From Kineococcus sp. NBC_00420 (GTDB taxonomy: Bacteria > Actinomycetota > Actinomycetes > Actinomycetales > Kineococcaceae): a stretch of 64,000 bases of DNA. The notes under the pieces were generated by a model. The model was not told the DNA's origin, ran no database searches, and saw only the letters and a program-made list of their open reading frames with translations. Shown one piece after another: positions 9,492-13,686 of this stretch. Both the position numbers and the translations under genes were made by a program. Positions within the stretch are counted from its first letter, which is position 1. Every line of letters begins with the position of its first letter. The stretch is from contig NZ_CP107930.1 of assembly GCF_036021035.1 (NCBI RefSeq), positions 1,054,001 through 1,118,000 of the forward strand. The letters run 5' to 3'.

Positions 9492-9582
9492 GCGGTGAAG
9501 ACCACCAGCCCGCCCACGTGGCGTCAAGGCGCCACGGCCCGTGGTGCGTTCCGTCGGCGGCAGGTCTAGGTTGGGAGGTGCA

Positions 9583-9598
9583 AGTTGTACTTTCAACT
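9583..9598. promoter_or_regulatory. inverted repeat in the wrbA leader (candidate operator)
   Basis: AGTTG-TACTTT-CAACT forms a 5-bp inverted repeat with a 6-bp centre, rich in A and T compared with its surroundings. It lies just downstream of a -10-like TAGGTT (9567-9572) and just before the Shine-Dalgarno GGAGG. That is a typical repressor position; AT-rich dyads of this kind occur at MarR/HxlR-regulated quinone-reductase genes. The regulator is not in this window. Confidence 0.5.
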
Positions 9599-9613
9599 AC
9601 CTGGAGGTTACCG

Positions 9614-10216
9614 GTGAGCGACGTCAAGCTCGCGATCGTCTACTACTCCGCGACCGGCACGGTGCGCGGCATGGCCGAACGCCTCGCCGCGACCGGCGAG
9701 TCCCTCGGCGCCGAGGTGCGGCTCCGGCAGGTGGAACGCACCCCCACCGGTGGGGAGAAGGCAGCCACCGACGAGCAGGCTGCCGAGGCCGAGGAGGCCA
9801 AGGGCGCCGCCGGGGTCACCGCGGACGACATCGTCTGGGCCGACGCGGTCCTCTTCGGCTCCCCGACCCGCTACGGCAACATCGCCGGGCAGCTCAAGGT
9901 GTTCATCGACTCCCTCGGCGCCCAGTGGGGTGCGGGTCAGCTCGCCGACAAGGTCTACGCCGGGTTCACCTCGACCTCGACCCTGCACGGCGGTCAGGAG
10001 TCCACGCTCCTCGCGCTCTACAACACGATCTACCACTTCGGCGGGATCATCGTGCCGCCCGGGTACACCGACCCCTCGAAGTTCGTGGACGGGAACCCCT
10101 ACGGCGTCGGCCACGTCGCCGGTCAGGGCGACCGGCCGCTGGACGACGTGACGTTCACGGCGCTGGACCACCTCGTGACCCGCGTCGTCGCCACCGCGAA
10201 GAAGCTCACGGCCTGA
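9614..10216 (+). CDS. wrbA: NAD(P)H:quinone oxidoreductase, WrbA type
   Basis: A 200-residue flavodoxin-fold protein of standard WrbA length. The FMN phosphate loop is YYSATGTVRGMAE (about residues 10-22), followed by the WrbA hallmark FGSPTRYGNIAGQLKVFID and later TSTSTLHGGQE and YHFGGIIVPPGY. WrbA proteins bind FMN, form tetramers and reduce quinones by two electrons, protecting against redox cycling. The start is GTG at 9614 after the Shine-Dalgarno GGAGG (9603-9607). An inverted repeat immediately upstream suggests local repression. It is convergent with the sucrase/ferredoxin-like gene. Confidence 0.93.
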   Translation: MSDVKLAIVYYSATGTVRGMAERLAATGESLGAEVRLRQVERTPTGGEKAATDEQAAEAEEAKGAAGVTADDIVWADAVLFGSPTRYGNIAGQLKVFIDSLGAQWGAGQLADKVYAGFTSTSTLHGGQESTLLALYNTIYHFGGIIVPPGYTDPSKFVDGNPYGVGHVAGQGDRPLDDVTFTALDHLVTRVVATAKKLTA

Positions 10217-10224
10217 GACCGGGC

Positions 10225-11118
10225 TCACCGGTCGATGTGCTCCAGCTCCCACGTCCGGGCGTGCCGGTCGTCGGGGGCGGAGCACGTCAACCGGTGCGCC
10301 GCAGCTGATCCCACCCGCAGGTGCACCCGCAGCGGACGCCCCTCGTGCTCGAGGTCGACGCGCCAGCGGCCCTCCTCCTCGTCGACGACCGCCCGCGGGC
10401 GCAGCGCCTCGAGCACGTCGATCCCGAGTTCCAGCCGGGCGTGGGCCTCCGCGGCCTGGATCACCCCGGGGTCGCAGGAACGACCGCGCAACCGGTGCGG
10501 CAGGACGCGACCGGTGCGCAGCGCCGCCACCAGGTCCGGTGCGTCCGCCGGGGACAACCGCCCGTGCGTGACCCCCGTCGGCAACGACAGGGCGGTCGCG
10601 GCGAAGCGGTCCCCGCCGAGGTGGGAGCACTCCCACACCGGAGCGGGGTCGAGGTCGGCGAGCGCCGCGACGACCGGGCGCCCCCGCAGCGCGCAGCACC
10701 AGTCCTTGCGCCCGTGGGTGCAGACCAAGAGCAGCGGCTCGTCGTGAAGCTCCCAGCCCTCGGTCGCGGCGGCGGCCTCGGCGACCTCTACCCGGGGGGT
10801 CGTCCGGGTCAGGGTGCGGGCCCGTCCGCGGCGGACGTCGACGAGGAAGAGCCGACGGGGACCGTCCGGGTCGAGGTCGCGCGCGGAGGGGCGCCGGATC
10901 AGCAGGAGCTTCAGACCGCGTTCCTGCGCGGTCCCGCGGAGGGCGTCGGTCACCACCGGCCCGAGCCGGGACGCGGGTACGGCCCCGGCGCCCCAGGCCC
11001 CGGGTTCCTCGACCAGGAGGTATCCGCGGACCGCGGTGGCGGTGCCGAGCAGGGCGTCGCCCCGTTCCTCGGCCGCCGCGGCGCACGAGAACCGGCGGGC
11101 GATGGCCTCCGTGCTCAG
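10225..11118 (-). CDS. sucrase/ferredoxin-like (Suc_Fer-like) [2Fe-2S] protein, probable CTG start
   Basis: About 297 residues with the family's two cysteine motifs, VCTHGRKDWCCALRGRP and WECSHLGGDRFAAT, which match a thioredoxin-fold [2Fe-2S] ferredoxin-like domain. A C-terminal region of about 80 residues follows, with EAHARLELGIDVLEAL. No ATG, GTG or TTG lies near the proper N-terminus. The best start is CTG at 11118, which overlaps the TGA of the upstream oxygenase gene (CTGA) and has AGGGGG 6 bases before it. It is the last gene of the peptide/oxygenase/ferredoxin trio. A role as electron donor to the oxygenase, or as an independent maturation enzyme, is inference. Confidence 0.83.
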   Translation of the reverse strand: MSTEAIARRFSCAAAAEERGDALLGTATAVRGYLLVEEPGAWGAGAVPASRLGPVVTDALRGTAQERGLKLLLIRRPSARDLDPDGPRRLFLVDVRRGRARTLTRTTPRVEVAEAAAATEGWELHDEPLLLVCTHGRKDWCCALRGRPVVAALADLDPAPVWECSHLGGDRFAATALSLPTGVTHGRLSPADAPDLVAALRTGRVLPHRLRGRSCDPGVIQAAEAHARLELGIDVLEALRPRAVVDEEEGRWRVDLEHEGRPLRVHLRVGSAAAHRLTCSAPDDRHARTWELEHIDR

Positions 11119-12347
11119 GCCGGACCCCCTACGGGGAGCAGGACGTTCTCGCGCAGCAGACGACGCACGACGACCAGGGCGTCGTCGGCATCGAGGCCGA
11201 CCGCGGCGAGGTCGCCCGCGGACGTGCGGCCCGCCGTCAGGACGTGGTCCAGGGCGGGACGGAGCCAGCCGGGGAAGGTGATCCGCCGGTCCGGGAGGAC
11301 GAGGTCCACGGTCTCGCCCGGGCCGCTCACCCGGGGACGCACCCCGCGCCGGACCCGCACCGCGCGGTCCGGGGTCAGGGTGCGGGCGGCCTCGTCCTGG
11401 GTGAGGACCCCGACCGGTTCCGGTGGCACCGCACCGGCCCGCCGCCGGGCGACGAGGCGTTCGACCGCGTCCTCGTCGAGGGTGTCGAGCCAGCGTTGCG
11501 CGGCGGCACGGAACTCCTCGACGTCCTCCGGGGTCGGCACTCCGGGCAGCGGCAGCGCACGACGCAACGCCACGTCCCCGGTGCCGGCGGAGGTCACCGC
11601 GTCGGTGAGGACGTCGGCCCACGTCGTGGCGAGCACCCCGATCGTCAGGTGGATGGACCGGTCCTCGGTCGTGCGCGCCGAGTGCAGCCAGCCGCGGGGC
11701 AGGTACAGGGCGTCGCCCGGTTCCAGGACGGTGTCGATGACGGCGGGCCGCCCGCCGACGGGGTCCGGGCCGAGTCGGGTGGAAGGCTGGGACTTCAGCG
11801 GGAGTTCCACCGCGGGTGGGTGGATCGTCCAGTGCTTGCGCCCGTCCACCTGGAGCACCACGACGTCGTGGGTGTCGTGGTGAGGGTTGAAACCCTGCGC
11901 CCCCGGCGGGGTCACGTACACGTTGACCTGGCACTGGTGCCCCAGGTCCTCCGCGAGCTGGGAGCAGAACGACTGCAGCGCAGGCCAGGTGCGGTGCAGG
12001 GCCTGGAGGACGATGGTCGCCCCGTCCGCGTGGGCGGCGGCGATGCGCTCGGAGTCCGGCAGGTCGGACAGCTGCTGGTTGCCCGCCACCGCGCGACGGG
12101 TGTAGCTCGCGCGGGGCAGGGGCGTTCCGTTCTTCACCAGGGAGAAGAACGGGGTCCGCAGCGCCCGCGGGCCGAGGAGTTCGTCCACGTCCGCGGGCGC
12201 GAGCAGGTCGTGGACGGAGCCGCGACCGCCCTCGGCGGCGCGGTCGGCGGCCCGGACGAGCAGCGGAGCGGCGTTCCAGTGCTCCTCGGCGAGGCGGTCG
12301 GCAGCCTCCCCGAAGCACCGCCGCAACGCCGGACCGGCGCTCGTCAC
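11115..12347 (-). CDS. JmjC/cupin-4 Fe(II)/2-oxoglutarate oxygenase
   Basis: A 410-residue member of the Cupin_4/JmjC group, which includes ribosomal protein hydroxylases such as RoxA/YcfD. The iron triad is visible: FNPHHDTHDVVVLQVDG gives His156 and Asp158, and LPRGWLHSARTTED gives His222. GRKHWTIHPP follows the first motif as in RoxA-type enzymes. The last 170 residues form a helical and winged-helix-like tail. The start is the GTG at 12347, one base after the TGA of the upstream peptide gene (TGACGTG), so translation is coupled. Because the upstream gene encodes a low-complexity Asp-rich peptide, that peptide is the likely substrate (inference). Alternative: an ordinary ribosomal oxygenase. 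Confidence 0.86.
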   Translation of the reverse strand: MTSAGPALRRCFGEAADRLAEEHWNAAPLLVRAADRAAEGGRGSVHDLLAPADVDELLGPRALRTPFFSLVKNGTPLPRASYTRRAVAGNQQLSDLPDSERIAAAHADGATIVLQALHRTWPALQSFCSQLAEDLGHQCQVNVYVTPPGAQGFNPHHDTHDVVVLQVDGRKHWTIHPPAVELPLKSQPSTRLGPDPVGGRPAVIDTVLEPGDALYLPRGWLHSARTTEDRSIHLTIGVLATTWADVLTDAVTSAGTGDVALRRALPLPGVPTPEDVEEFRAAAQRWLDTLDEDAVERLVARRRAGAVPPEPVGVLTQDEAARTLTPDRAVRVRRGVRPRVSGPGETVDLVLPDRRITFPGWLRPALDHVLTAGRTSAGDLAAVGLDADDALVVVRRLLRENVLLPVGGPA

Positions 12348-12348
12348 G

Positions 12349-12582
12349 TCAGGATCCCGCGGGGTCACTGCCCGCCGGGTCGCTGCCGCTCGGGTCGACC
12401 TGGGTGGAGTCGGAGTCGCCCGAGTCGGAGTCCCCGCCCTCGCCACCGTCGGGGTCCACCCCGGCCGGGTCGGAACCCGAGGGGTCCACCTGGGTGGCGT
12501 CGCTGTCGCCGGAGTCCGCGTCGCCCCCGGGGGTCGAGGCGGAGGTCGTCGTCGTGATGTCGTCGTCGCTGAGGTTGCTCAT
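12349..12582 (-). CDS. 77-residue Asp-rich tandem-repeat peptide (candidate RiPP precursor or protein substrate)
   Basis: ATG-started, 77 residues. The first 18 residues (MSNLSDDDITTTTSASTP) look like a short leader. Two 26-residue repeats follow at residues 19-44 and 49-74, each built on GDSD-x-TQVDPSGSDPAG, with a DGGE linker. There are 18 Asp and one Glu but no Lys, Arg, His, Cys or aromatic residue, so the net charge is about -19. There is no signal peptide. The gene is one base upstream of the JmjC oxygenase and in operon with a [2Fe-2S] protein. Hydroxylation of repeated residues is the simplest hypothesis. The even codon usage and coupling argue that it is a real gene. Confidence 0.78.
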   Translation of the reverse strand: MSNLSDDDITTTTSASTPGGDADSGDSDATQVDPSGSDPAGVDPDGGEGGDSDSGDSDSTQVDPSGSDPAGSDPAGS

Positions 12583-12723
12583 GGGCCCACCCTGGCACCC
12601 ACCTCCCGGCGGGGCACCTCCGAGCCTCCCGGGGACGTGACGCGATGTGCCTGCGCGGTGAGCGCCCGACTGCCAGACTCGTCCTGCTCCACCCACTCGA
12701 CGACGAGCCCGCCGGAGGCGCAC

Positions 12724-13686
12724 GTGCCCAGGTCCAGGATCTCTCCCAGGTTTCCCAGCGCGCTCGCGGCGGCGGTGGTGGGGGCTGCGCTGGTGGTGGG
12801 CAGCGCCGGGAGCGCGGCGGCCCAGGGACCACCACCGCCCAGGCTGAACCCGGCGGGGGCGAAGGTGGCCACCCTCGGCGACTCCTACGCCTCGGGTGAG
12901 GGCGCGCCCGCGGCCGGGGCGACGCCGTGGGTCAGCGACGTCTACGGCGACAGCGGCGCCGACGGCTGCCACCGCTCCGCGCTGAGCGGTCACACCGTCT
13001 TCGGGACGGGTCTGCTGCGCGGCGACGCCAAGGCCTACGTCAACGCGTCGTGCAGCGGCGCCACCACCGTCAGCCTGGTGCGGGGGTTCAAGGGGGAACG
13101 CTCGCAGCTCGACGCCCTCGGGCCGCGCACGAAGACCGTCACCCTGAGCATCGGCGGCAACGACGCCGGGTTCGGCAGCGTGGCCACGGCGTGCAACACC
13201 GTGGCGACCGTCCCCGGCGCACCCTCCTGCCAGGCCGCGCTGGCGGGTTCGGCGGCCGCCCTGCGGGCGCTGACCACGGCACCCGCCGGGGGCACCACCC
13301 CGCTGGAGCAGACCTACCGCGCGGTGCTCGCGAAGGCGCCGCACGCCGTCCTGGTCGTCACGGGCTACCCGCTGCTCTTCCCCACCGGCGCAGCGTCCCC
13401 GCGCTGCGACGTCATCCAGCCCGCGGCCCGGACCGCGATCAACACCGCGACCCTGCAGCTCAACGCGGCGGCGAGCGCCGCGACAGCCGCCGTCGGGGGC
13501 CTGTACGTGGACCTGGTGCGCCCCTTCACCGGGCACTCCTCCTGCGAGGCCGACCCCGCGGCGTCGTGGATCAACACGATCGTGCCGCGCGACCCGGTGC
13601 TCAGCTTCCACCCCGGCGCCACGGGACAGGCGGCCATCGCCGCGCGCCTGCAGGAGATCCGCTGCTTCGTGCGTCCCGGACGCTGA
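12724..13686 (+). CDS. secreted SGNH/GDSL hydrolase
   Basis: A 320-residue protein. A signal peptide covers about residues 1-34 (basic start, hydrophobic AVVGAALVVGSAGSAAA, then AQG as cleavage site). The mature domain has all SGNH blocks: GDSYASGEG with Ser54 as nucleophile (block I), a conserved Gly region with NASCSGATT, SIGGNDAGF (block III) and VLSFHPGATGQ with the catalytic His (block V). Six or more cysteines suggest disulfides, as in Streptomyces extracellular lipases/esterases of this type. The start is GTG 12724 with GGAGG 5 bases upstream. A strong hairpin at 13706-13742 ends the transcript. Substrate probably a lipid or acyl ester. Confidence 0.9.
   Translation: MPRSRISPRFPSALAAAVVGAALVVGSAGSAAAQGPPPPRLNPAGAKVATLGDSYASGEGAPAAGATPWVSDVYGDSGADGCHRSALSGHTVFGTGLLRGDAKAYVNASCSGATTVSLVRGFKGERSQLDALGPRTKTVTLSIGGNDAGFGSVATACNTVATVPGAPSCQAALAGSAAALRALTTAPAGGTTPLEQTYRAVLAKAPHAVLVVTGYPLLFPTGAASPRCDVIQPAARTAINTATLQLNAAASAATAAVGGLYVDLVRPFTGHSSCEADPAASWINTIVPRDPVLSFHPGATGQAAIAARLQEIRCFVRPGR

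Follow-up and report, generated by a model that had tools for sequence, protein, structure and literature searches.

A small Asp-rich repeat-peptide gene is widespread in actinobacteria beside an iron-dependent oxygenase that probably modifies the peptide

Organization of the locus in Kineococcus

The genome of Kineococcus sp. NBC_00420 is a single 5.43 Mb contig, of which a stretch of 64,000 nucleotides (termed the window; NZ_CP107930.1, positions 1,054,001 to 1,118,000) was analysed in this study. Three tightly packed minus-strand genes, running from window position 12582 to 10225, encode an Asp-rich peptide, a JmjC/cupin protein and a Suc_Fer-like protein (Table 1). An initial annotation of this DNA had described the three leftward genes as joined by TGACGTG and CTGA junctions, both of which were found (12345 to 12351 and 11115 to 11118); at the latter, the putative CTG start of the Suc_Fer-like gene overlaps the oxygenase stop codon. 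The combination of a small Asp-rich repeat-peptide gene with a neighbouring iron-dependent oxygenase gene is widespread in actinobacteria, and the oxygenase probably modifies the peptide. No description of this pairing as a system was found in the open PMC literature. The nearest prior statement found is a single sentence, in the available excerpt of Bregman et al. 2025 (PMC12710340), which mentions RiPP-like contexts of PF08007 proteins in bacteria (RiPP, ribosomally synthesized and post-translationally modified peptide).

Table 1. Features of the peptide-oxygenase locus, in window positions
Feature	Position	Strand	Basis
Asp-rich repeat peptide, 77 aa, candidate precursor/substrate	12349..12582	-	Open reading frame, selection and composition evidence
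Leader motif LSDDDITTT, peptide residues 4-12, common to peptides with differing repeat types	12547..12573	-	Motif pattern in 117/131 peptides
Repeat 1, peptide residues 20-44	12451..12525	-	Self-match, codon comparison
Repeat 2, peptide residues 50-74	12361..12435	-	Self-match, codon comparison
TGACGTG junction, oxygenase start one base from peptide stop	12345..12351	-	Sequence
JmjC_2/Cupin ROX-type Fe(II)/2-oxoglutarate oxygenase, 410 aa, GTG start at 12347	11115..12347	-	Pfam, alignments, model
Iron ligands His156 and Asp158, codons	11874..11882	-	Alignments
Lys171, probable 2-oxoglutarate ligand, codon	11835..11837	-	HxD-12-Lys in 147/147 homologues
His222, third iron ligand, codon	11682..11684	-	Alignments
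C-terminal strand/helix domain, oxygenase residues 330-405, winged-helix/RRE-like by element order	11133..11360	-	Model
Suc_Fer-like protein with thioredoxin-like [2Fe-2S] ferredoxin domain, 297 aa, CTG start	10225..11118	-	Pfam, model
Cys133-x8-Cys142 in ferredoxin domain	10693..10722	-	Alignment of homologues
His166-x3-Asp170, at the HX3H position of Aim32	10609..10623	-	Alignment and literature

The peptide gene and its repeats

As the initial annotation had it, the peptide contains 18 Asp among 77 residues and no basic, aromatic or Cys residue (Lys, Arg, His, Phe, Trp, Tyr and Cys all count zero). Two tandem repeats of 26 residues had been described in addition; two repeats are indeed present, but with a period of 30 (a unit of about 25 residues plus a linker) and not in strict tandem. 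They are identical at 22 of 25 residues although 13 of 25 codons differ, and their self-match score is 20, compared to a maximum of 8 in 1000 composition shuffles. The ratio of nonsynonymous to synonymous substitution rates (dN/dS) ranges from 0.14 to 0.42 for pairs among six Kineococcus copies and from 0.46 to 0.89 against the divergent copy L042; to judge from these sequences, the peptide is under purifying selection. The window peptide has no match in Pfam or NCBIfam. Likewise, none of the peptides of five relatives matched an NCBIfam model; Pfam, scanned for four of them, yielded nothing above cut-off. A search of the window genome for further peptides recovered only the known gene and an antisense match that overlaps it.

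Recurrence of the peptide beside the oxygenase

Relatives were collected in two samples. Among 396 Actinomycetota genomes drawn evenly from the phylum, 58 harbor an oxygenase homologue at E ≤ 1e-10. The second sample comprises 80 named loci, the best 80 of 484 confirmed relatives and not a random sample, which span at least 29 named genera in addition to metagenome-assembled genomes. An upstream open reading frame (ORF) was scored as a peptide if it contained at least 15% D+E, at most 6% K+R and at least 75% small or polar residues; four ORFs exceeding the automatic K+R limit (L031, L064, L090 and L099) were accepted by eye. The clade referred to below is a deduplicated group of 137 rows in the oxygenase tree (quick method, midpoint root), and the fork holding every peptide-linked row has a support of 89 in the Shimodaira-Hasegawa-like approximate likelihood ratio test. 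Loci L039 to L041, which stem from the same genomes as L006, L008 and L009, were removed before the clade counts, yet are contained in the sets of 131 peptides.

Seven clade loci have less than 250 nt of upstream sequence, leaving 130 of 137 evaluable. The peptide is encoded directly upstream of the oxygenase at 128 of them, or at 127 of 130 if the doubtful locus L025 is left out. For comparison, the same rule fired in only 8 of 3663 other windows of the named loci. Restricting the count to the phylum sample gives 48 of 63 loci with the peptide, paralogues and truncated loci included. Eleven homologues are peptide-less, ten of them outside the clade, and none of the eleven has an adjacent Suc_Fer gene; the ten distant homologues possess neither peptide nor Suc_Fer. 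On the tree, the label "no peptide" needs 2 changes, compared to a mean of 10.8 after shuffling.

The pairing was also recovered in a blind test, in which 197 whole genomes, drawn evenly from the class, were searched with a profile (A4) of eight type-A peptides and with the oxygenase ignored. Matches were obtained in 19 genomes, and in all 19 the best match lay at most 288 nt from a clade oxygenase, while the other 178 genomes gave no match. The clade oxygenase itself is encoded in 30 of the 197 genomes (bits ≥427; next best 265). Nine of the 11 oxygenase genomes missed by the profile were inspected and all nine carry the peptide; the remaining two are G150, the source of the doubtful L025, and the window genome. 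Six lower-scoring oxygenase homologues inspected alongside include one with the peptide (L184) and five without.

Within the window's family, represented by 12 genomes, oxygenase and Suc_Fer are encoded in the same seven genomes and the peptide in seven, six genomes having all three genes and four having none of them. In the genome with oxygenase and Suc_Fer but no peptide (G003), the oxygenase begins at base 38 of the contig, and in the genome with the peptide only (G010) it ends 41 bases from the contig end. The trio behaves as a unit within this family. The expectation that a repeat-peptide ORF, with differing numbers of repeats, recurs immediately before the oxygenase gene was thus borne out, to an extent far beyond chance, by the clade counts and the blind test, and the type of repeat was found to vary as well.

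Spurious ORFs are abundant in high-GC genomes, and the peptide ORF might accordingly be a compositional artefact of GC-rich DNA and not a real gene. The low control rate, dN/dS values far under 1 among close copies and the position of all blind matches next to the oxygenase speak against a chance ORF, which was rejected on these grounds; the probability left to it is negligible.

JmjC homologues lacking the peptide or an adjacent Suc_Fer are found at L150, L152-L155, L157-L160, L162, L163, L183 and L185-L188. One record (L046) is titled Candidatus Melainabacteria and shows a typical actinobacterial peptide-oxygenase-Suc_Fer locus; it is probably a mis-binned contig.

Conserved leader, variable cores and candidate target residue

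A simple pattern for an N-terminal motif of the approximate form [LI]x[DE][DE][DE][IM]xT (LxDDD[IM]xT) matched 117 of 131 peptides; among the 14 unmatched, several have a variant of the motif (e.g. SDDDITNE and SEQDIESV). The leaders of some classes appear to resemble the LSxEELxxV leaders of other RiPPs. This one motif precedes quite different cores. Cores of the type GDSDxTQVDPSGSDPAG occur in Kineococcus and Frankiales records, EGPADGGSNPEGHDGGADGTAG-like cores in Mycobacterium, Micromonospora, Rhodococcus, Cellulomonas and others, and DGTDGDATDGDA-like cores in other classes of the phylum. The simplest cores found, those of L179 and L180, are nearly pure GGAD and are likewise located upstream of the oxygenase. 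In 116 of 128 cores, the self-match exceeds that of all 100 composition shuffles. A divergent peptide of 155 aa lies upstream of the oxygenase at L022, with SADGTDQGVEGGTYGPRDTA-like repeats, Tyr and Arg present and no adjacent Suc_Fer.

Only Asp, Gly and Ala are found in all 131 cores (three genomes counted twice), followed by Ser (125), Pro (123) and Thr (122). The L179 core, from residue 13 onward, consists of 34 Gly, 18 Ala and 17 Asp with no other residue. Cys is present in one of the 131 peptides and aromatic residues in 18. FIH and ROX enzymes hydroxylate the beta-carbons of Asn, Asp, His or Arg. Since Gly has no side chain and this enzyme group is not known to hydroxylate Ala, Asp is the plausible target, provided that a single residue type is modified throughout. 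The list of candidate sites in the initial annotation (Asp, Pro, Ser/Thr and Gln) is thereby narrowed, Asp being the only one of them found in every core.

The oxygenase

The second protein of the locus matches Pfam JmjC_2 (PF08007; E = 4e-28) and Cupin_8 (E = 6e-11). Alignments of 23 and of 54 sequences show no variation at His156, Asp158 or His222, so that its assignment as a Cupin_4/JmjC oxygenase with an intact Fe(II) triad stands. A Lys located 13 residues past Asp158 (HxD-12-Lys) is present in 147 of 147 homologues; the position of this Lys171 is presumably that of the 2-oxoglutarate ligand in FIH/ROX. Sequence matches in the PDB include NO66 (E = 2e-38), MINA53 (E = 4e-31) and YcfD (E = 4e-10). 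The structure model (predicted local distance difference test score, pLDDT, 93.4) matches the same three proteins over residues 2 to 408 with VIA Z values of 28.7, 27.4 and 19.2, respectively. As modelled, the enzyme is a ROX-type JmjC protein with a three-domain fold, the domains beyond JmjC ending in a winged helix. The C-terminal part of the model reads strand-strand-strand-helix-helix-helix, which is the element order given for RiPP recognition elements (RREs) in the accessible part of Bregman et al. 2025 (PMC12710340).

The Suc_Fer-like protein

The third gene product was described in the initial annotation as a Suc_Fer-like [2Fe-2S] protein, in accordance with a PF06999 match (E = 1e-15) of the 297-aa sequence and a structure model (pLDDT 94.8) containing a thioredoxin-like [2Fe-2S] ferredoxin domain. 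This domain resembles the Aquifex thioredoxin-like [2Fe-2S] ferredoxin (Foldseek E = 1.2e-3, TMt 0.72). This gene neighbours the oxygenase gene at 99 of 132 loci in the clade and at none of 10 distant loci. It is missing from all eight Micromonosporaceae genomes tested, in which peptide and oxygenase are kept, and is located elsewhere on the same contig in two other genomes; it is therefore accessory and cannot be essential everywhere. An obligatory trio was rejected on account of the Micromonosporaceae.

The cluster motif of Aim32 is given as CX8CXnHX3H in the available part of PMC8482512. In the subfamily studied here, HX3D is found in 90 of 102 sequences and HX3C in 10 (2 were unmatched by the pattern), so that the bis-histidinyl ligand motif is not present. 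The replacement of the second His by Asp or Cys suggests, at the level of sequence, an unusual [2Fe-2S] ligation. Nothing relevant on these Suc_Fer proteins was found in the open PMC literature.

Neighbouring genes and putative regulation

The three genes are flanked on the opposite strand by 9518 to 10216 (+), a WrbA-type flavodoxin by the look of its translation, and by 12637 to 13686 (+), which looks like an SGNH/GDSL lipase. Within 6 kb of the oxygenase in the best 80 of 484 loci, JmjC and Suc_Fer alone recur across lineages. Apart from the genes of the locus and their readings in other frames, the largest conserved neighbour clusters cover 17 of these 80 loci, the members displayed being Micromonosporaceae. 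A scan of the window for sigma-70 promoters and terminators found none. The pattern GTT-N15-18-GGGTA, which resembles promoters of general-stress sigma factors, is present in the 200-nt upstream region of 28 of 127 loci, compared to 0.4 expected from shuffles. These sites are mostly from Micromonosporaceae and therefore not independent, and none is found among the Kineococcus loci. They lie approximately 60 to 100 nt before the peptide start at L051, L053, L064, L078, L089, L104, L110 and others. A mobile or phage origin of the locus was rejected: there was no phage match, and the best plasmid match reached 75% oxygenase coverage at 34.7% identity, none reaching 80%.

Proposed mechanism and alternative explanations

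The locus may represent a RiPP-like system with a two-gene core of peptide and ROX-type JmjC oxygenase, in which Asp residues would be repeatedly beta-hydroxylated under guidance of a leader; taken as a whole, this scheme is judged to be just on the probable side. Its observed basis is the gene linkage, the clade-wide co-conservation, the shared N-terminal motif, the intact catalytic residues and the ROX three-domain fold. That the peptide is the substrate of the oxygenase is likely, and that Asp beta-hydroxylation is the reaction, if the peptide is the substrate, is reasonably likely. We infer that the conserved N-terminal motif would serve as the leader, with the C-terminal winged-helix/RRE-like domain of the oxygenase as its probable docking site, and that the Suc_Fer-like partner by which the core is usually joined would, where present, be an accessory redox partner, either keeping the iron reduced or performing a second oxidation. 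Many Asp in the flexible repeats would be hydroxylated at the beta-carbon by the Fe(II)/2-oxoglutarate centre; the repeats would provide equivalent sites, their number setting the size of the product. Our guess is that the product binds metal. A further-reaching version, tentative and rather doubtful, is that actinobacteria produce ribosomal poly-beta-hydroxyaspartate: leader-guided JmjC hydroxylation of Asp runs would yield multidentate iron or calcium buffers tuned by repeat number, constituting a new RiPP class on the ribosomal-oxygenase fold with a redox partner bearing a Cys2HisAsp or Cys3His cluster.

Several observations weigh against the proposed scheme. Ribosomal proteins are what the known relatives (NO66, MINA53 and YcfD) modify. 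A Pfam scan of the C-terminal domain in six members gave no PqqD/RRE match, and Micromonosporaceae do without the Suc_Fer gene. No leader protease or transporter recurring across lineages was found within 6 kb in the best 80 of 484 loci; the leader could be removed by a general protease. The upstream ORF of L025 conforms to the composition rule yet shows neither motif nor repeats. An oxygenase kept beside an absent or frameshifted peptide had been named in the initial annotation as the refuting case, and such loci do occur, but are rare (2 of 130): L107 retains the oxygenase with a peptide frameshifted within its repeats (draft genome), and L157 has an oxygenase without peptide, on a long-branch sequence assigned to the Streptomyces family by inference. 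The frameshift of L107, which belongs to Mycolicibacterium pyrenivorans, is located upstream of 5561 and is either a real loss or an assembly error.

The peptide might be the substrate of a different chemistry, namely crosslinking, desaturation, oxidative backbone cleavage or a hydroxylation followed by a second step of Suc_Fer. RiPP non-haem iron enzymes, including those of the 2-oxoglutarate type, perform such reactions, a Cys-Tyr crosslink being cited and backbone cleavage reported in the accessible part of PMC12636437, and the frequent adjacency of Suc_Fer would fit a second step. However, Suc_Fer is dispensable in Micromonosporaceae, and the scarcity of Cys and aromatic residues excludes the known Cys-Tyr crosslink for most peptides, so that a chemistry of this kind is considered unlikely. 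Less likely still is an unmodified, acidic and disordered partner (e.g. a metal buffer or chaperone) sharing the operon for a physiological reason with an oxygenase that acts on a ribosomal protein. Although the closest solved structures are ribosomal oxygenases and Asp repeats could bind metal without modification, the near-strict co-occurrence in the clade, an N-terminal motif shared by peptides whose cores are not, and the loss of the peptide from every one of the 10 homologues that branch outside the clade suggest a direct link between enzyme and peptide.

Acidic nascent chains destabilise translating ribosomes, and the ORF could thus be a regulatory leader whose acidic N-terminus controls the coupled oxygenase gene. 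Most peptides have an acidic run at residues 5 to 8, and translational coupling is apparent at the window junction, but the long and varied repeats extend well past the first codons, the protein sequence of the peptide is under apparent purifying selection and up to 174 nt separate the peptide end from the projected oxygenase start; a purely regulatory role is therefore very improbable. Leader-guided hydroxylation of the peptide remains the explanation preferred here.

Significance and relation to known systems

Through this pairing, a branch of JmjC enzymes known for acting on ribosomal proteins is connected, in at least 29 named genera, to a repetitive peptide as its probable dedicated substrate. 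If the peptides are modified, they would form a large family that is easy to express and offers many identical sites in each molecule, suited to studies of processive hydroxylation. They would also be a possible class of encoded metal ligands and would place the ROX winged-helix domain in an evolutionary setting, as a module for peptide docking.

In comparison to Aim32/Apd1 (PF06999), the Suc_Fer-like protein shares the family match above cut-off, the thioredoxin-like ferredoxin domain and the CX8C motif, but has HX3D or HX3C in place of the HX3H given for Aim32 in the available part of PMC8482512. The locus resembles RRE-bearing RiPP pathways in its small precursor-like ORF with a conserved N-terminal motif and a variable core beside a candidate modifying enzyme, and in the bbb-aaa element order of the modelled oxygenase C-terminus, as described in the excerpt of PMC12710340. 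It differs from them in its Asp/Gly/Ala repeat cores, its ROX-type enzyme and the lack of a recurrent protease or transporter, the modification being a predicted one. The aKG-HExxH and MNIO enzymes are iron oxygenases that, like the putative activity here, modify side chains in ribosomal peptides, Asp and residues in succession among them; Asp beta-hydroxylation and the hydroxylation of Gln runs (PflC/PosC) are described for these enzymes in the accessible parts of PMC12636437 and PMC13060819. These enzymes have other folds and metal sites, whereas the enzyme of this locus is a JmjC/cupin protein. With the ROX proteins NO66, MINA53 and YcfD (PF08007) it has in common the HxD...H iron triad and the three-domain fold over its whole length; while these three are titled ribosomal-protein hydroxylases in the PDB, the actinobacterial oxygenase is encoded beside a dedicated repeat peptide.

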